From Moraxellaceae bacterium (lineage in GTDB: Bacteria > Pseudomonadota > Gammaproteobacteria > Pseudomonadales > Ketobacteraceae), in contig NVVG01000010.1 in NCBI GenBank assembly GCA_002402125.1, positions 11,312 through 28,668 on the forward strand: DNA of 17,357 nt. The letters are read 5' to 3'. Each line of letters begins with the position of its first letter. Position 1 is the stretch's first letter. Positions 1 to 17,357 of this stretch are shown piece by piece. The notes beneath the pieces were generated by a model. The model did no database searches, had not been told where the DNA came from, and was given only the letters and a program-made list of their open reading frames with translations. The position numbers and the translations under genes are program-made.

Positions 1-1545
1 TATCGCAGGCGTCACCTTGGTTATCACCGTCGATATCGTTTTGATCAGGGTTTGCCAACCCTAAACAGTTATCAATGTCATCACTGATTGAATCGCCGTC
101 ACTGTCGCTGTCGCAGGCATCGCCCACGCCATCATCGTCACTATCGGTTTGGTTGGCGTTTGCGTTAGCAGGACAGTTATCAGTAATATTGTTTACGCCA
201 TCACCATCCATGTCTGAATCACATGCATCACCGACATTATCATTATCTGCATCGAGTTGATCGGTATTGAATATTGCAGGACAGTTGTCGTCACTATCAG
301 CAACGCCATCTTGGTCACTGTCTATAAAGCTGTCGCACGCGTCACCAACGTTATCGCTATCCATGTCCACCTGGTCAGTGTTAGCGGTGGTTGGACAATT
401 GTCAGTAGTATCATCGATACCATCGTTGTCACCGTCTGTATCACAGACGTCCCCTAACCCATCGTTGTCGGCGTCTGCTTGATCCGGGTTGGCGTCCATT
501 GGGCAGTTATCACCACCATTTTCTACACCATCGTTATCTGTATCGGTATTGTCATCACAGGCATCGCCAATGTTATCGGCGTCGCTATCCGTTTGATCAT
601 TGGCTATTAGCGGGCAGTTATCGTCTACGTCGGGGAAGTTATCGTTATCATCATCCGTATCGCAGGCATCACCCACAAGGTCGTTGTCGGTATCGGACTG
701 ATCAGGATTAGCTACTGTTGGGCAGTTGTCATTGCTATCATCAATGCTATCGTTATCAGTATCGATAAAACTGTCACAGGCATCGCCAATTCCATCTAAA
801 TCAATATCCGTTTGAGCGGGGTTCGCGATGAAGGGGCAGTTGTCATTGGCATCATTTTGTTGATCGTTATCATCATCACTGTCACAGACATCACCGACTT
901 GGTCTTGATCGTTGTCTAATTGATCGGCATTAGGTGTCATTGGGCAGTTGTCATTATCGTTAATAACGCCATCGTTATCAGCGTCGCTGGAACAGGCATC
1001 GCCCACACCATCATCATTGCTATCAAGCTGGCTTGGGTTGACAGTAAACTGACAGTTGTCTTGCTCGTCATCGACATTGTCACCATCGTCGTCGTTATCA
1101 CAGGCATCACCCACAAAATCATGGTCCTTGTCTGCTTGCGATGGATTGGATAGGGAGGGACAGTTATCGACGCCATCATCTATGCCGTCGCCATCACTAT
1201 CGGTATCGGTATCACAAACATCACCAACACCGTCGTTGTCACTGTCTTGTTGATCCGTATTTGATGTTAACGCGCAGTTGTCGTTATCATTGGCTTTGGT
1301 ATCGCCATCCGTATCGGAATCACAGACATCACCCTGTCCGTCACCATCACGATCGGTTTGCTCAGGGTTTGGCAGTTGCGGGCAGTTGTCTTGTGTGTCT
1401 TCAATAGAGTCTCCGTCTGCATCACTGTCACAAACATCGCCTACGCCGTCTTGATCAAAATCTGCTTGATCGCCATTGGGCGTAAGTTCGCAGTTGTCGA
1501 TATCGTTGTTAATTCCATCATCATCGGTATCGGTTTGCCCTAATG
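1..1545 (-). repeat. Array of 14 coding TSP3 modules
   Basis: The words cagttgtc and cagttatc (DNC on the coding strand) recur 14 times at 105-118 base spacing, each with the same Asp-rich surroundings. At DNA level the modules are diverged and codons vary, so this is an old protein-level repeat and not a recent tandem duplication. The array continues beyond the left edge. Confidence 0.85.
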
Positions 1546-3265: not shown

Positions 3266-3290
3266 TTACCTGAGGTGCGTATTCATCCAT
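3117..3290 (-). CDS. Doubtful 57-residue ORF or gene remnant overlapping the PEP-CTERM 3' end
   Basis: On the minus strand, in another frame than the PEP-CTERM gene, an ATG at 3290 opens a 57-residue ORF (MDEYAPQVIAQQESITVENN...) ending with TAG at 3117. The frame is open further upstream without a start, giving a plausible protein-like stretch (ALLWHKSLTEFAVKL) read over the PEP-CTERM tail. No good ribosome-binding site precedes the ATG. The composition looks like a real soluble protein and not random translation, so this may be a fragment of a decayed gene. I do not recognise a family. Confidence 0.3.
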   Translation of the reverse strand: MDEYAPQVIAQQESITVENNVFDLFWGACSKASKPNNALNKYLYTYPSCKARGSRYQ

Positions 3291-4084
3291 AAGCTTAACC
3301 GCAAACTCTGTAAGACTTTTATGCCAAAGTAAAGCTGATGCCTTTTATTCCTACGCGAAAAACTAAGACCCACAAGCCCGACAGCTATCAAAAACAATGC
3401 GCCAGGTTCAGATACTTCAGTAGACTCAGCAACGGGCTTAACAGGCTCATTGTAGGTATACGTTAAGTAAGCGGTACCCTGCCAATCATTACTTTTATGG
3501 AATTGCCGACAAAATTGCGCACCACAACTTATTATAAAAGCATCAAAGCGCTCTGTAAGCTGAACCTGTACATCATTACCAACCGGGTTAATAAACGCTT
3601 CCAAACTGATGCTGGATAAGTCCAGGGTTTGATTAAAGGCACCTGCATTATTCTCGAATTGGGAACAACCGGAAACGCCAGAACTTGAACTTGAACTTCT
3701 AGAACATCCGCTGTATTCAGAATCTGACATTGTTGCAACTGCAGAATCAGGATCAAAAAGAAAAAAGCTTAACGCAAATGATGAAATTCCGCTCCCCTTA
3801 ACACGCGCAGTATAGAAACTACTGCTAGTACTGACCCCACTCCTATACTTCCAGTTTGAGGTAAACCGCAAATCAACGCCGGTAAGCGACCCTAGCTCCT
3901 CATCAAATCTCATAAAACGCAAACTATCGTGTACGGATAACGCTATCGAACCTCTAGTGACAATAGATATTGAATCGAAGTCCCAGCTATCTTCATAGGT
4001 AATTGTTGTAGCACTTGCCCCAGTGATTACAAAACACATACTGCAAGCGATGACTGCTTTTTTTAAACGGCGAATATTCATCAT
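3266..4084 (-). CDS. PEP-CTERM protein, choice-of-anchor E-like
   Basis: 272 residues. A signal peptide (RRLKKAVIACSMCFVITGASA) is cleaved probably after residue 25. The body resembles choice-of-anchor E proteins: TITYEDSW at the mature start, then RFDEELGSLTGVDLRF (60-74) and, near the end, TAYLTYTYNEP (204-214). Between them is a Ser-rich segment with paired cysteines (127-140). The sorting signal lies at 225-248: SEP, a hydrophobic helix, then the basic cluster RRNKR. Such proteins are exported and processed by an exosortase; none is encoded in this window. Unusually, 24 more residues follow the basic cluster, where the family normally stops. AAGGA lies 5 bases before the first of two adjacent ATGs; either could be used. 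The protein's own role is unknown, probably biofilm or extracellular matrix. Confidence 0.82.
   Translation of the reverse strand: MMNIRRLKKAVIACSMCFVITGASATTITYEDSWDFDSISIVTRGSIALSVHDSLRFMRFDEELGSLTGVDLRFTSNWKYRSGVSTSSSFYTARVKGSGISSFALSFFLFDPDSAVATMSDSEYSGCSRSSSSSSGVSGCSQFENNAGAFNQTLDLSSISLEAFINPVGNDVQVQLTERFDAFIISCGAQFCRQFHKSNDWQGTAYLTYTYNEPVKPVAESTEVSEPGALFLIAVGLVGLSFSRRNKRHQLYFGIKVLQSLRLSLWMNTHLR
3681..3698 (-). repeat. Three-copy GAACTT hexamer coding for serine run
   Basis: GAACTT occurs three times in a row inside the PEP-CTERM gene and encodes part of the SSSSSS run (residues 130-135). It is a short in-frame simple repeat; a change in copy number would add or remove two serines. Confidence 0.5.
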
Positions 4085-10530: not shown

Positions 10531-13500
10531 TTAAACCGACTGATTTCTTATATCAGCCGTCTCCGGCCCACTTCCCGCTGCAAGCCATCGCCTTAAAACA
10601 CGCTCAAGCTCATCAGGTTCAACCGGTTTACTTAAGTAATCACTCATACCCTCACTTAGGCACCTCTCTTTGTCACCGGTCATCGCATTTGCTGTTAACG
10701 CTATAATCGGTATCGCCTTATATCGACGAGTCGCAGCACCAAGGCGAATATTGCGCGTTGTCTCATAACCATCCATCACCGGCATCTGGCAATCCATCAA
10801 AATCAAGGTATAGGGATTATCATCTCCTGCTTTGATTAAGGCTTTTAGTGCTTCCTTACCATCAGAAACAATGTCAACTAGCAAACCAACATCCTCTAAT
10901 ATTCCTTTTACCACTTCTTGATTTATCTGGTTATCTTCTGCCAGCAATAGTCGTGTATTAGTTGGCCAACTTGGAACCTCTGCCCCAGTCGCGGGGGGGG
11001 ATCTGTGTTCCTGCTCTGGCCTGTTATCACCCTCTATCATTAACGAAGAGGTTTTCTGTAAAACTGCAGCATCCTCAACAACAACGGCAAGTGCATCAAA
11101 CAAATCTGACGTTGTCGCAGGCTTAGGAAAATATGCACTAAAGCCTAACTGAGATAAATACGCAGCATCTCCTTGATGAACCATCGATGTCATCATGACT
11201 AATTTCATCTGGCTATAAATAGGATTTGATTTTAATTCCTCGGCGAGTTGAGCACCATCCATGCCAGGAAGATCCGCATCAATAAACACGACATCAAACA
11301 AGCGCGTGCGATTTTCGTCGCGTACATTTAACAACGATAGCACTGCCGGCCCATCGCTCAGGCCCAATGTCTTCGCTCCCCAATGCTGGAGTTGCTGACA
11401 TAATACGGATCGATTGCTAGCATTGCTATCTACCACCAGTAGCTCTAGCGCTTTCATATTAACCTGAGGTATAACCTCCCTGGACAGCTCGCTAACCTGT
11501 AGGTTTACCACAAATTCGAAACAACTCCCCCCTCCAGCAGGGGTACTGACAGTGATATCACCCCCCATTAACTCACATAATTTTCTTACGATAGACAACC
11601 CCAACCCCGTCCCGCCATATTGCCGCGTAGTAGAGGAGTCATATTGGCGAAAGGCTTCAAACATATGCTCTTGTTGGTCGGCGGGAATGCCAATACCCGT
11701 ATCCTGCACCGCACAACAAAGTACCATCGACTGCCCCTCCCTGGCCAGTAAGCTTGCACGTATCGTTATCTCTCCCACTTCAGTAAACTTAAGCGCGTTG
11801 CCCACAAGATTGGTTAATATTTGGCGAATTCGACCAGGATCCCCTTTCACCATCGAATGCTCAATCCCAATCACATCAAGAACAATCTCCAAGCCTTTTT
11901 CTTGCGATCTAACCGCCATGGCTTCAGAAAAGTCCCCCAACAAATCGCGCAAATTAAAATCTATCGCTTCTAGCTCCATCTTGCCAGAATCTATTTTTGA
12001 AAAATCGAGAATATCATTAATGATAGTAAGTAATGATTGCGCACTAGATCTAGCCATAGTGGCCTTTTTTGTTTGATCAGCTGTCATATCTGTTTTCATA
12101 AGCAACCCAAGCATACCGATTACACCGTTCATGGGTGTACGGATTTCATGACTCATGGTGGCCATAAAGTCTGATTTGTAACTGCTGGCAAGTTCGATCT
12201 CTTGAGCGTAATCTTGTAATTTTTCCTGCGCATTAAGCAGGTCTTCGTTTTGTACAATCATTTCATTTTTCTGCTTCTCTAGCAGAGCGGTCTGCAGCTC
12301 GAGATTCTTTTTTGATGCATCCATCGCGTCTCTAGTGGTTGCCAGCTGCCCAGTCATGGCATTAAACGAGGTTGCAAGCGCCCCTATTTGATCGTTACTT
12401 ACGATATTTATCTCTACCGTAAGGTCACCAGCAGCAACCCGTTCTGTAGCATCACTCAATTGCCGTAAAGAATCCAAAATTACTCTTACTAAATATGTTG
12501 CGACAACAAAGGCAATAAATACGGAGACCAAGGTACCAAACACTGTCTGAAAAAGTGTTGTGGTTGCGGCAGATTCTGCTTGTGCCGATCTTTCGCCGAT
12601 TAATTTATTTTCAATATTAATAAAGTGTTTGATATGATCTCGAATACCATCAATGATGTTTTTTCCGGTTTCATTCTCTATCAATCGAGTAACATCACGC
12701 ATTGATGAGCCCGCCAGGCTAAGCTTTCTTCGCAAAGCAATTTCTGGTTCACCTGCTTGGACATTCCATTGATCGGCTGTTTTTCTCAGTCTTTCTATCT
12801 TCGCGAGCATTTCTCCCGTGTCATAACCTGCAGAAACAAGCGCTCTAATTTCAGAAAAATGCCTTATAACACTGCGTTTCCCCCGCTCATACGGCTGTAG
12901 AAACTCATTTTTACCGGTAATAAGGTATCCTCTTTGGCCGGTTTCCATATCGACAATATCTTTTGAGAGGGCTATGATAAGGCGCTGGGCCGACTTATTT
13001 TTTGCTCTGACAAACACCTGATTAAGACCATCCTGAATATATCGAATATTGTCCAAAATGTCTTTTCCAAGCCCTCCAGCGATGACCGCTTCCAAAGTAA
13101 GAAAATTTTCTTGGCCCGCGGATATCTGTTGCCGCAACAATATTTCTGGTTCTGCAGCAGTCAACAGCCATCGATCAATCTCAGTTTCAATCGTTGCTAT
13201 CTGCTCAAGGGTAGCATCAACATTAAAAGCCTGGTCCGCAATATTAACAAGTTCTGCTAGCGACCTGCGCAAGTTTTTATTGCCTCGATGATAAGGTTCA
13301 AGAAAGGATTCATCGCCAGAAATAATAAAACCTCTCTGTCCCGTTTCTTGGTCAATCAGATTCTTTCCAATCTGCAATACTAAATTTGAACCCTTAGTGT
13401 TTCTAGCCTTGATAAAATCGCCGTTTATTTCCTCTAGCTGCAGCCTGGCCTCATCGATAATTGTCTTACCCGTTCCTTTCTTAAACACATGCTGTATGTG

Positions 13501-15228
13501 TGAAAGCGTAGACAATCTGCTTTGAATCACATGATCTGCCGCATTAATCGCTGGATCAACTTCCGACCGATACCAATTGGTAAAATTAGAGCGTAGATCG
13601 TCTATATCTTTTTTTATCCCGGTGAGATCATCCCCCGAATAAAATTTGCTGACAAAGTTTGTCAGCTGGATAAACAAAGATATGAATTCATCTCTAGATT
13701 GATTTAACGCAACCTTCTGCTCTTCTTTCCCACTAATCATAAACTGAAGAAATCGAGAATTCTGATCCTTAAAGCTTCTATCTATATCAAGAATAATGTT
13801 AACGCCATCGGGCAAATTCCAGATTATAAATCTTTGTTTTATTTTTTCTATCAGCTCACGCCTATTCCCAGTACTTTCAAAAGAAAATGCTTTTTCAACA
13901 AAATTATTCAGAACTTCTAAGGGTGAAAGTCCAGATTTGTTAATTTCTCTTCTCGTCTCAATTTCAGACCTTGCCGCTTTTTCCTGCCAATCGTCTAATA
14001 GGAATTCGATATGCTCAATTTTTTCTAGCACGTCTTGTTGGTCGTAGGCATATTTAGCGATGTCTTTTAACGAGTTTATGTTTTTGTTAAAGTCGATTAA
14101 ACCTTGCTTAAATGGGGTTAAAAATTGTTCCTCGCCGGTTATTAAAAACCCACGCTGACCTGAATCCTGGTCAACCATCGACTTAGCTATTGACAAAACA
14201 ATAATCTGCGCACTTTCATTCTCAGAATTTCGATAAATATTATTCAGATAATCGAGAGTAATTCTTAATTCATCGAGTATATTTTTACCTTTACCTCTAG
14301 CAATAATTTTTTCCATTTGATAAAATTTTTCGGCTTCGGCTTCGGCTTCGGCTTTATGAACTTGCGCTCGACGAATCTCAATCTCCGGCTGAGCAGCCTC
14401 ATTAAGCCATCTTGCGGACAAGCGTTCAGTATCCGCAATCAGCTTCTCAACCTCGTTTCTAGGCGGCGAATTAAGCATCAATGATTTTAGTTTTCCAACA
14501 TGGTATTTAAAACCTTCCTGGCCTCGATAATATGGCTCCAAAAAATCCTCATCTCCAGATATAAGAAAACCAAGCTCACCGGTTTCTTGGTCAACTATAT
14601 CCGTCAGTATTGACACCAATAAATTAGCAGCCTGTTGGTTTTCAGCCACTACAAACAGTTCATTGAGTTCACTGATCGTTATCCGAATTTCATCGAGAAT
14701 TTTCTTGCCCGTTTTATCTTGCAAAATTATTTCAATATGATCCAAACTTATGGAGTCCAATTTCACCTTTCTGCGCTCGGCTATTTCAGGTTCTGCAGCC
14801 AGCTTCAACCAATCCTTAGCTTTCCGATCGATTTCTTCAAGATTATGCACTTGTTGTGGGTCATCCTTAACCAACTCTTTTAATTTCTCGATCTCAACAT
14901 CCCATTGTTTTTCGGAAGCAACAAATGGCTCCAAAAAATTGTCCTTGCCGGTAATTAGAAACCCACGCTCTCCGCTCTCCATGTCGACAATGAGCTTTTC
15001 CAACAAATGCCCCTTAGTGATAACTTTTTGAGTATGTTGAACCCATTTTGCGGTATCAACCAAGGAGTTAGTACTAAAATAAACCACCGTTGAAACAATC
15101 ACCATCAACACAATGGGTAGTGCAAAGCCAGCAATGATCTTTGTGCTGATAGTTATATTTTGGGTAAACCGATCCACATAACGAAACAGCCCTGAATCAT
15201 TTCTTCGCCTATTATGCTCTTCCTTCAT
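10531..15228 (-). CDS. Hybrid sensor histidine kinase with six tandem CHASE3-like units
   Basis: 1565 residues, an inner-membrane sensor. Order: short basic N-terminus; membrane helix about 31-53; a periplasmic part of about 840 residues with six CHASE3-like units; membrane helix about 892-914; HAMP about 915-965; coiled coil; HisKA with the phosphorylated His1027 in MSHEIRTP; ATPase domain with the N-box NLVGNAL (1140-1146), DTGIG (1176-1180) and GGTGLGL (1205-1211); receiver 1 (about 1262-1383) with acceptor Asp1317; receiver 2 (about 1426-1548) with acceptor Asp1479 in [11 protein letters not shown]. There is no HPt domain, so a separate phosphotransfer protein is expected. Receiver 1 has VVDSN where most receivers have two adjacent acidic residues; receiver 2 has the normal AEDN. 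Ordinary CHASE3 kinases have one sensor unit. The ligand is unknown. It is divergent from a TonB receptor gene. GAGAG, 9-13 bases before the ATG, is only a weak ribosome-binding site. Confidence 0.93.
10993..11000 (-). repeat. C8 homopolymer in the linker between the two receivers
   Basis: Eight consecutive G on the plus strand are C8 on the coding strand, reading TCC CCC CCC (Ser1410, Pro1411, Pro1412) in a disordered linker. A one-base slip here would remove the second receiver and leave the rest of the kinase intact. Confidence 0.7.
12559..15072 (-). repeat. Six CHASE3-like units, about 131-140 residues each
   Basis: Each unit has an ETGxRGFLITGxxxFLEPY core, at residues 83-102, 214-233, 354-373, 489-508, 627-646 and 761-780. 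Downstream in each is a helix with AAEPEIxxRR (near 144, 276, 415, 554, 689, 823) and, in most, a linker GKxIxDxIR (174, 314, 587, 721, 855). The fourth unit keeps only FMISGKEE of the core and lacks PEI-RR. DNA of the units has diverged, so the duplications are old. Confidence 0.88.
14329..14352 (-). repeat. Four-copy GCCGAA hexamer in the kinase gene
   Basis: TTCGGC is repeated four times on the plus strand and codes for the alternating Ala-Glu run at residues 293-300, in the helix that joins CHASE3 units 2 and 3. Being a multiple of three it is in frame; a copy-number change would lengthen or shorten this helix by two residues. Confidence 0.75.
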
Positions 15229-15555: not shown

Positions 15556-17357
15556 ATGACTGAGCATAAAATCCCACAGCAAAATCACAGAGACAACCTG
15601 CGCAAAGGCCTACAAAAAAAACTACAGCTTTGCATTTTCCTAACTAGCTACCTTTTAATATCTCCCGCTGCGGCATTCCATGAGATAGAGCAAACACTGT
15701 TTGACATGTCCCTTAGCGATCTACTTGATATAAAAGTCACCACCCCATCAAAATTCGCCCAACCATTAAATGAAACACCCGCTGTCATCACCACCTTTTC
15801 CAAAGAAGAAATCGCCCTCTTTGGCGGTCGCGACCTCGGTGAAGTATTATCTCGCATGCCAGGTTTAGAAGAATTTGCATCACTGATCAACGGTCGCAAT
15901 GTCGTCACCATCCGCGCCGACCAGATCAGCACCAACAACAACCATGTGTTATTTCTATTGGACGGCGTACCGTTAAATCGAGAAAGTTATACGGGTGGCA
16001 TTTGGAATGAAGCCATGATATTAAGCATCCCGCTCAATATCATCCACCAACTCGAAGTTATTCGTGGTCCTGGCTCGGTATTATATGGCACCAATGCCTT
16101 TGCCGGCGTAGTGAATATTATCACGCAAACTTCCCATGAGCTGACAGACAGCGTCACGGTTGGTACCGGCAGTTTCAACACTAAGAAGGTAGCCATAGAA
16201 TTCACTGGCGAAATAAATGAATGGTTCTGGACCAGCGCATTACGTTTTAGTCAAACCGACGGCTGGCCCTTTACTAGCAAAGATAGTGCTGGCGACACAT
16301 TCAAAGATCATGCTTACAGTCAATCTCCAGGCATAATTGCGACATTAAAAAAACACGGCTTTAGCGCTAGCCTATTTTTGGGAGAAGCAGAGCAATTTAC
16401 CATTAGAGGGTCCGCCGACTTGCCTGAAGCCGGCAGAACAGACAACGAAAAATACATGCTAGATTTGGCCTACATGCTCCCCTTAAGTGATCGGTGGATG
16501 TTAACAACCCATTTATCCCATGTTGGCGGTAGGACAAAACACAAGGTAGCAAGCCCAACTCCCGGGCAACTCTTAACTATCAACTATGAAACAGACGACT
16601 CGAGATTTGAGGTCAGCTCCAGAGCAGAATTGAATGACCACAGCAGCCTGCTTGTCGGTGCCACCATTGACCATTTCTCAGGCAGAACTCCGCCTCCCTT
16701 GGTCATCGTACCCGATTGGAGCAATTACTTAATGGGGCTATATGGGCAATATGAGATCAAAATCGACGACACAAAATTCATCTTAGGCGGGCAGCTTAAC
16801 AAACCCAAAGAAAACCCCAGCAAATTCGTCCCTCGAATGGGTGTCATCCATCACCTCAACGATAACAGCGGGGTGAAATTATTGTACGGACAGGCATTCA
16901 GATCCCCTTACGTGGTAGAACGCGAGATCAACGTTAGCATACCCAACCTAACCCTGAAGGGAGACAAAAACCTTAAGCCAGAACTGGTTACTACCTGGGA
17001 TCTACAATATTTCTATTCTGATACAGAGCTCTCATACACGGCAACGGTATTTCGCAACGAACAAAAAGACCTGATCGTTCGATCACCCACCGGCGCTACC
17101 TCCTTTGTCTTTGCCAATAAAGGTGAATTGGTCATTCAAGGCATAGAACTAGAGAGTAAATATAAAATAGGCCATTGGTATTTTACCGGTAGCTTTACGG
17201 CTCAAAACAACGAAGACGGCAATAACCTTAAGGACTTCACCTTACAACCTCGTCACATCATTAAGCTCGGCATTGGATATACCGCAGGTGACTGGTCCGT
17301 TGGGGTGTTTGATAGCTACCTGGCCAAATACCAGGAAAACGATCACAACATTCCTCA
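15556..17357 (+). CDS. TonB-dependent outer-membrane receptor (3' end outside window)
   Basis: 600 residues are visible from the ATG at 15556; the frame is open to the window edge. A long signal peptide (basic residues to 22, hydrophobic core, cleavage probably after the AAA at 38-40) precedes a segment with the MSLSDLLDIKVTTPSK motif (51-66), common before the plug in one group of TonB receptors. The plug (about 66-190) shows TPAVITTFSKEEI, LGEVLSRMPGLEEF, VLFLLDGVPLN and LEVIRGPGSVLYGTNAFAGVVNIIT. The rest is barrel, with RSPYVVERE and LKPELVTTWDLQY as typical late elements; the last strands lie outside the window. It should import a scarce ligand (siderophore, vitamin, sugar or other) using TonB energy. 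The ligand is not evident. The gene is divergent from the CHASE3 kinase. Only a weak ribosome-binding site (GGA, 10 bases before the ATG) is visible. Confidence 0.92.
   Translation, partial: MTEHKIPQQNHRDNLRKGLQKKLQLCIFLTSYLLISPAAAFHEIEQTLFDMSLSDLLDIKVTTPSKFAQPLNETPAVITTFSKEEIALFGGRDLGEVLSRMPGLEEFASLINGRNVVTIRADQISTNNNHVLFLLDGVPLNRESYTGGIWNEAMILSIPLNIIHQLEVIRGPGSVLYGTNAFAGVVNIITQTSHELTDSVTVGTGSFNTKKVAIEFTGEINEWFWTSALRFSQTDGWPFTSKDSAGDTFKDHAYSQSPGIIATLKKHGFSASLFLGEAEQFTIRGSADLPEAGRTDNEKYMLDLAYMLPLSDRWMLTTHLSHVGGRTKHKVASPTPGQLLTINYETDDSRFEVSSRAELNDHSSLLVGATIDHFSGRTPPPLVIVPDWSNYLMGLYGQYEIKIDDTKFILGGQLNKPKENPSKFVPRMGVIHHLNDNSGVKLLYGQAFRSPYVVEREINVSIPNLTLKGDKNLKPELVTTWDLQYFYSDTELSYTATVFRNEQKDLIVRSPTGATSFVFANKGELVIQGIELESKYKIGHWYFTGSFTAQNNEDGNNLKDFTLQPRHIIKLGIGYTAGDWSVGVFDSYLAKYQENDHNIP

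Follow-up and report, generated by a model that had tools for sequence, protein, structure and literature searches.

Six CHASE3 units in a hybrid sensor kinase and a proposed base bundle with permuted inserts

The 17,357-nucleotide window analysed here (contig NVVG01000010.1 of assembly GCA_002402125.1, positions 11,312 to 28,668) comes from a Moraxellaceae bacterium placed by GTDB in the Ketobacteraceae. Its reverse strand encodes a protein that, by domain content (HisKA, HATPase_c and receiver), is a hybrid histidine kinase with predicted kinase activity, and whose sensor region holds six tandem CHASE3 units. According to PMC9769921, CHASE3 is part of a four-helix-bundle sensor superfamily. 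The arrangement of the six units in sequence, and the way in which they may fold together, are described below.

The kinase and its six CHASE3 units

10531..15228, reverse strand: hybrid sensor histidine kinase, open reading frame of 1565 aa; Pfam CHASE3 six times, HAMP, HisKA, HATPase_c and Response_reg twice
15082..15138, reverse strand: membrane helix 1, residues 31-49; mean hydropathy 2.71
14659..15057, reverse strand: CHASE3 unit 1, residues 58-190; Pfam 109.1 bits alone
14239..14658, reverse strand: CHASE3 unit 2, residues 191-330; Pfam 76.4 bits alone
13837..14238, reverse strand: CHASE3 unit 3, residues 331-464; Pfam 64.5 bits alone; helix 4 without GKxIxDxIR
13420..13836, reverse strand: CHASE3 unit 4, residues 465-603; Pfam 23.2 bits; helices 1-3 degenerate, helix 4 intact
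13018..13419, reverse strand: CHASE3 unit 5, residues 604-737; Pfam 78.6 bits alone
12574..13017, reverse strand: CHASE3 unit 6, residues 738-885; Pfam 104.3 bits alone
12475..12531, reverse strand: membrane helix 2, residues 900-918; mean hydropathy 2.50
12343..12492, reverse strand: HAMP, residues 913-962; Pfam 49 bits
11983..12177, reverse strand: HisKA, residues 1018-1082; Pfam 64.9 bits; contains SHEIRTP, which we take to be the phospho-acceptor motif
11500..11844, reverse strand: HATPase_c, residues 1129-1243; Pfam 103.6 bits
11074..11445, reverse strand: first receiver domain; two Response_reg stretches in Pfam; limits approximate, set by eye from the sequence
10594..10947, reverse strand: second receiver domain; best Pfam Response_reg stretch, residues 1428-1545

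Scored as a whole against the Pfam CHASE3 profile (PF05227, curated cut-off 28 bits), the kinase yields six stretches with 409.7 bits (E 3.3e-124), and a profile built from its relatives detects all six units (60-190, 191-330, 331-465, 466-603, 604-737 and 738-871). A sequence-only reading of this DNA had placed one kinase with six such units between two membrane helices at 12559-15072 and had seen no hydrophobic segment separating them; all of this, coordinates included, is borne out. No hydrophobic segment lies between residues 31-49 and 900-918, the highest 19-residue hydropathy window there (starts 59-865) reaching 1.13. The two membrane helices flanking the CHASE3 region are assigned by hydropathy, and the side of the membrane on which the region lies is presumptive.

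The motifs reported for the units hold only in part. The ETGxRGFLITG core, described as occurring six times, is clear in units 1, 2, 3, 5 and 6 (residues 84, 215, 355, 628 and 762); clear neighbouring cores are spaced by 131, 140 and 134 residues, and unit 4 fits between, offering only a 10-residue stretch at 491 in place of a clear core. Unit 4 likewise has no match to FLEPY or PEI-RR but retains GKxIxDxIR, the motif that unit 3 has lost. When the units are scanned one by one, unit 4 remains below the Pfam cut-off (23.2 bits, E 7e-5), whereas the other five pass. The repeats are not a chance resemblance, because BLASTP between units gives E values from 7e-31 (unit 2 with 5) to 0.003 (unit 3 with 4); inter-unit identity is 19-40%, units 2 and 5 being the closest pair (40%).

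Copy number and position-specific unit types

Relatives were collected by searching residues 1-900 against about 5.8 billion proteins (7993 candidates scored, the best 120 of 152 hits used) and by two further searches that supplied the best 120 of 520 hits and all of 64 hits, giving 294 distinct proteins with the query included. Copy-number proportions in this set do not amount to a census, because the queries had six, three and one units. The first set (n=121, query included) comprises 44 proteins with six units, one with five, five with four, 28 with three, 42 with two and one with a single unit. All six proteins with four or five units are without membrane helix 1, and they therefore look truncated. 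Among the 267 complete proteins, defined by hydropathy as having both membrane helices, 38 have one unit, 140 two, 48 three and 41 six; none has four, five or more than six. What stands out in this distribution is the lack of proteins with four or five units. The remaining 27 of the 294 proteins carry one to six units.

The six-unit array of the kinase is not unique. Six units occur in 44 of the 294 proteins, including records named Maricurvus nonylphenolicus, Pseudoalteromonas denitrificans, Cycloclasticus sp., Bermanella sp. and Methylophaga sp., among others, and this is part of what the sequence-only reading had itself named as grounds for refuting it. The accompanying view that CHASE3 is usually single agrees with a gammaproteobacterial sample, in which CHASE3 above the cut-off is present in 64 of 369 genomes and, outside the window's own genome, no frame among the matches listed has more than two such copies; it does not accommodate the recurrence of tandem copies among the relatives. 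A census at the level of the order found CHASE3 at E <= 1e-8 in 65 of 390 genomes, and the six-unit pattern of strong copies with a gap at the weak unit 4 appears, among the matches listed, in single frames of genomes G000, G002, G004, G434, G492 and G514, the last frame being incomplete. Up to 10 candidates per genome were scored in both censuses. In a scan of genome contigs (best 80 of 585 loci), matches arose mainly through the kinase part, and two frames had CHASE3, with one unit each. A literature search recognised no paper on tandem CHASE3 arrays, most subscription journals being outside its coverage.

Two side observations concern these relatives. Several six-unit proteins (P0004, P0008, P0012, P0015, P0016 and P0017) carry an HPt domain (PF01627), for which the window's kinase has no Pfam match. 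Frames of ~690-720 aa in other gammaproteobacteria (G143, G353, G359, G263, G073 and G089) show paired weak CHASE3 hits, mostly below the cut-off, and are perhaps a diverged two-bundle receptor group.

Units differ systematically according to their position. A tree built on 242 units of selected proteins places first units from two-, three- and six-unit proteins close together, and last units likewise. Unit typing, which used one profile for each of the three positions, drawn from 48 three-unit receptors, divides this signature between two segments. Helices 1-3 are of the first type at unit 1 in 41/41 six-unit, 140/140 two-unit and 37/38 one-unit proteins, and at other positions in only 6/205 (all decayed unit 4) and 4/140 cases in six- and two-unit proteins. 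The linker and helix 4 are of the last type at the last unit in 41/41, 140/140 and 23/38 proteins, respectively, and elsewhere in 16/205 (11 at the decayed unit 3) and 2/140. Segment by segment, helices 1, 2 and 3 of single-unit proteins prefer the first unit over the last in 38, 35 and 30 of 38, while the linker does so in only 13 and helix 4 in only 8 (helix 4 is not aligned in three of these proteins). The informative segments here are helices 2 and 3, because helices 1 and 4 adjoin the membrane under any model. A single-unit receptor thus looks, in sequence, like first-unit helices 1-3 joined to a last-unit helix 4.

The same composite appears within the genus of the window's organism, in which chemoreceptors carry one, two or three units:

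L099 5538-8732: chemoreceptor with 3 CHASE3 units, outside the shared orthologous locus
L100 4646-9337: chemoreceptor with 3 CHASE3 units, shared orthologous locus
L103 7772-12484: chemoreceptor with 1 CHASE3 unit, shared orthologous locus
L105 6373-10683: chemoreceptor with 2 CHASE3 units, shared orthologous locus
L106 1-3758: chemoreceptor with 2 CHASE3 units, shared orthologous locus

Orthology of the locus is indicated by three flanking proteins that are 78-92% identical between L100 and each of L103, L105 and L106. The single unit of L103 matches unit 1 of L100 at 24/32, 20/32 and 16/32 identical positions in helices 1, 2 and 3, and its helix 4 matches that of L100 unit 3 at 14/18 positions versus 7/18 for unit 1. 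These receptors have the same kind of array as the kinase but differ from it in their chemotaxis signalling output, preceded by PAS domains in the four scanned; the four whose tail lies inside the locus sequence end in EWEEF and show MCPsignal, HAMP_2 and PAS matches. One genus therefore supplies natural one-, two- and three-unit receptors at one locus, and together with the 41 complete members of the six-unit family this series is material for testing how bundle number alters sensing.

Covariation, decay and structure models

Mean-field couplings were computed on the unit columns of 229 complete multi-unit proteins, in subsets, and were judged mainly against a null in which helix 4 alone was shuffled among proteins 20 times. 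At fixed registers, helix 4 of unit k is clearly linked to helix 1 of unit k+1 (z 7.4 in 140 two-unit proteins; z 5.0 in 301 neighbour pairs of three- and six-unit proteins), and with the register left free this pair alone stands out (z 5.2 and 2.0). Covariation closing the array from first to last unit is only suggestive: first-unit helix 1 with last-unit helix 4 gives z 1.6 in two-unit proteins and 2.5 in 89 three- and six-unit proteins, first-unit helix 3 with last-unit helix 4 gives 2.7 in both, and the best free registers of the closing pairs (150, 210, 149 and 211) are the expected ones. Within a unit, helix 1-helix 4 (z -1.9 to 1.8) and helix 3-helix 4 (z -2.7 to 0.7) were also scored. 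An earlier shuffle of whole rows (24 shuffles; 20 for neighbours) gave z 6.1 and 3.7 for the closing helix 3-helix 4 pair and 10.9 and 5.1 for the neighbour pair; its own-unit z values are meaningless, because pairs within one unit stay untouched. Covariation in single-unit proteins is too thin to use (38 proteins, effective number of sequences 24).

Decay within the six-unit family is concentrated in two adjoining elements:

13822..13881, reverse strand: unit 3 helix 4, putative partner of unit 4 helices 1-3; joint decay, rho 0.79 over 41 proteins
13534..13812, reverse strand: unit 4 helices 1-3, degenerate and putatively part of an inserted bundle; family mean 12.4 bits versus 120-162

Unit 4 helices 1-3 average far fewer bits than those of the other units and are lowest in 32/41 six-unit proteins. 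The mean of unit 3 helix 4 is 0.0 bits (12-29 for the others), this helix being lowest in 26/41 and scoring -21.4 bits in the query kinase, while unit 4 helix 4 holds 24.5. Across the 41 proteins, unit 3 helix 4 tracks helices 1-3 of unit 4 and not those of its own unit (rho -0.16). The own and next values are 0.20 and 0.28 for unit 1, 0.49 and 0.58 for unit 2, 0.20 and 0.49 for unit 4, 0.69 and 0.61 for unit 5, and -0.22 and 0.35 for unit 6.

AlphaFold2 models were made of the six-unit kinase and of one three-unit receptor. The four-helix bundle fold of the CHASE3 region is recovered, and the solved CHASE3 structure 3VA9 fits best across the first and last unit in both models (127/127 residues at a root-mean-square deviation (rmsd) of 1.8-1.9 A; residues 45..859 of the six-unit model). 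In the six-unit model, membrane helix 1 is continuous with unit 1 helix 1 and membrane helix 2 with unit 6 helix 4, and each of the five junctions contains a three-residue break, which rules out a continuous helix between successive units. A bundle composed of first and last unit is thus supported, mainly by models and sequence types. Foldseek found no match for the whole models at E <= 0.001 in the Protein Data Bank or among viral models; the 3VA9 alignment that it lists for the three-unit model (109 columns, rmsd 12.8, without a range) is uninformative on the composite.

Proposed architecture, rivals and known systems

The reading that we favour, with a probability of roughly 70%, is that a single base CHASE3 bundle holds, between its helices 3 and 4, five inserted bundles of circularly permuted form, and that the array closes on the base. 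The kinase would be an inner-membrane protein whose periplasmic part is this single four-helix bundle carrying five others. The base, lying next to the membrane, would join unit 1 helices 1-3, connected to membrane helix 1, with unit 6 helix 4, connected to membrane helix 2; each insert would be a circular permutant that combines helix 4 of one unit (k) with helices 1-3 of the next (k+1), and the chain would leave the base and come back to it as a closed array. The inserts might sit as a ring, a loop or a stacked lobe. The two parts of the putative base are:

14770..15033, reverse strand: base bundle part 1, unit 1 helices 1-3, about residues 66-153; 3VA9 fit 45..859 and first-type signature
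12589..12669, reverse strand: base bundle part 2, unit 6 helix 4, about residues 854-880; 3VA9 fit and last-type linker and helix 4

The motifs ETGxRGF (helix 1-2 turn), PEI-RR (helix 3 end) and GKxIxDxIR (helix 4 start) might then form sites shared by neighbouring units. A signal that binds or strains an insert could reach the membrane helices, HAMP and the kinase by way of the shared base bundle, as in one-bundle sensors. It is conceivable, though on balance doubtful, that CHASE3 receptors in general grow by inserting permuted bundles into one base and that closed arrays form only with 2, 3 or 6 bundles, in which case the gap at four and five copies would reflect a closure rule. On this proposal six bundles would make a head shaped as a closed ring or loop, in which signals from as many as six shared-interface sites converge on the base, and the degenerate bundle of unit 3 helix 4 and unit 4, opposite the base, would serve as a cap or hinge.

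Stacking of six independent bundles end to end as a rod, each with helices 1-4 of its own unit, was the picture drawn by the sequence-only reading; it is not supported, and the base bundle with permuted inserts replaces it. Six sequence units of regular length, the lack of a hydrophobic break between them and the partial alignment of the solved multi-bundle receptors McpS and McpZ to the models would all suit a rod. However, an up-down-up-down bundle starts and ends on the same side, so a one-way rod presumably could not return to a membrane that holds both helices; own-unit helix 1-helix 4 covariation does not rise above shuffles, and the bridging 3VA9 fit, with which the sequence types agree, points the same way. 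We regard the rod as very improbable. The six own-unit bundles might instead stand side by side on the membrane, joined by helix 4-helix 1 hairpins without any swap. The antiparallel covariation between helix 4 and the next helix 1 is equally expected of such a plain hairpin, the three-residue junction breaks fit it too, alternative four-helix fits exist in the three-unit model, and own-unit helix 3-helix 4 covariation could still be present. This arrangement nevertheless seems rather unlikely, given that the own-unit helix 1-helix 4 signal stays within the shuffles, an absence consistent with permuted inserts, that single-unit receptors combine first-type helices 1-3 with a helix 4 that is mostly of the last type, and that the template fits are composite. 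A separate question of origin, compatible with either fold, is whether the six-unit array arose by simple doubling of a complete three-unit sensor (3+3). The presence of copy numbers 3 and 6 and the absence of 4 and 5 among the complete proteins, and the closeness of units 2 and 5, would follow from it, but unit 4 helices 1-3 are not first-type in 35/41 proteins and unit 3 helix 4 is not last-type in 30/41, though both are badly decayed; such an origin appears unlikely.

Several observations weigh against the base bundle with permuted inserts. In the covariation, the fixed registers were picked after an earlier coupling run on the same proteins, the shuffles leave shared ancestry in place, and the closing signal is weaker when helix 4 alone is shuffled than under the row shuffle. 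With free registers, closing pairs reach z -0.6 to 1.2, none clearly above the shuffled peaks, and in two-unit proteins the top closing helix 1-helix 4 band is 132, not 150. In three- and six-unit proteins, a non-neighbour control that pairs helix 4 of the first unit with the last unit scores z 2.1 and -0.1, where closing scores 2.5 and 2.7. Helix 3-helix 4 pairs do not discriminate, since helix 4 of unit k with helix 3 of unit k+1 gives z 3.8 in two-unit proteins and -3.3 in three- and six-unit neighbours; their own-unit and k to k+2 control peaks (0.63 and 0.51) match the closing peaks. The joint decay could be regional, because unit 3 helix 4 and unit 4 helices 1-3 adjoin in sequence, and in unit 5 the own correlation exceeds the next. 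As to the models, their predicted template modelling scores are 0.60 and 0.53, and the exact helices of the composite have to be deduced, because the aligner gives only the first and last aligned residues. In the three-unit model, moreover, designed bundles fit another grouping at 240..366, comprising unit 2 helices 3 and 4 with unit 3 helices 1 and 2, and the same alternative is chosen by the solved sensors MCP2201 (234..377), two PcaY entries (238..369 and 232..371) and Tar (224..377). The first/last switch is weak or absent in more distant single-unit kinases. The break between two- and three-unit orthologues falls between helices 2 and 3, at no bundle border, a result that may also be taken as neutral.

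Among solved structures, the sole clear sequence match is 3VA9, the HK9 sensor of Rhodopseudomonas palustris, from the same family; the kinase differs in having six copies and in that the bundle fitted in the model bridges the first and last unit. PMC6381276 identifies 3VA9 as a CHASE3 domain and, among solved structures, as the closest homologue of the nitrate sensor McpN, and presents the helical bimodular domain (HBM) of McpS (2YFB) as a sensor that likewise has more than one four-helix bundle per receptor. HBM has two bundles, not six, and belongs to a different Pfam family; its profile (PF16591) is not among the 8 Pfam families found in the kinase at E up to 1. McpS fits the three-unit model over 222/235 residues at rmsd 9.9 and the six-unit model over 229 residues at 14.1. 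The periplasmic domain of McpZ from Sinorhizobium meliloti (8F7N) reportedly consists of three concatenated four-helix bundles, resembling the kinase in linking several bundles within one receptor, with three versus six; it fits over 285/364 residues at rmsd 14.2 and over 304 residues at 23.5 in the respective models. Structure-search rows for McpZ, McpS, talin and catenin were not accepted as relatives, and no weight was given to families missing from the structure-search lists.

As for the signal, PMC10950880 links the CHASE3 histidine kinases RsfS, CfcA and KipF to ionic-strength or respiratory stress, and describes RsfS as a non-hybrid kinase with a CHASE3 domain only, unlike the six-unit hybrid kinase. 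By analogy with these three, the first candidate for the cue is an ionic or envelope stress.

Annotation of sensor domains usually relies on the number of profile hits in a chain. Such a count may hide the architecture here, where hits mark sequence units; neighbouring units appear to share the folded bundles, and the first and last units appear to close the array. If so, bundle insertion allows bacteria to build a larger receptor head while the signal path through the membrane stays intact.

When six neighbouring proteins were compared with the orthologue loci of G004, G002 and G001, no conserved partner gene was found among the three, and two distant hits were obtained, an acyl-CoA dehydrogenase at 26% and a TonB receptor at 23% over 180 residues (G002 locus). 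The divergent neighbour at 15556-17355 on the forward strand encodes a TonB-dependent receptor with Pfam Plug and barrel that extends past the window; in L098 it spans 568-2592 (674 aa). On the reverse strand, 2-1687 encodes a protein with 13 thrombospondin type 3 stretches, cut at the window edge, which is adjoined by an OmpA-family protein with one similar acidic repeat by eye. A PEP-CTERM motif protein lies at 3266-4084 on the same strand (22.1 bits versus a cut-off of 20.7).

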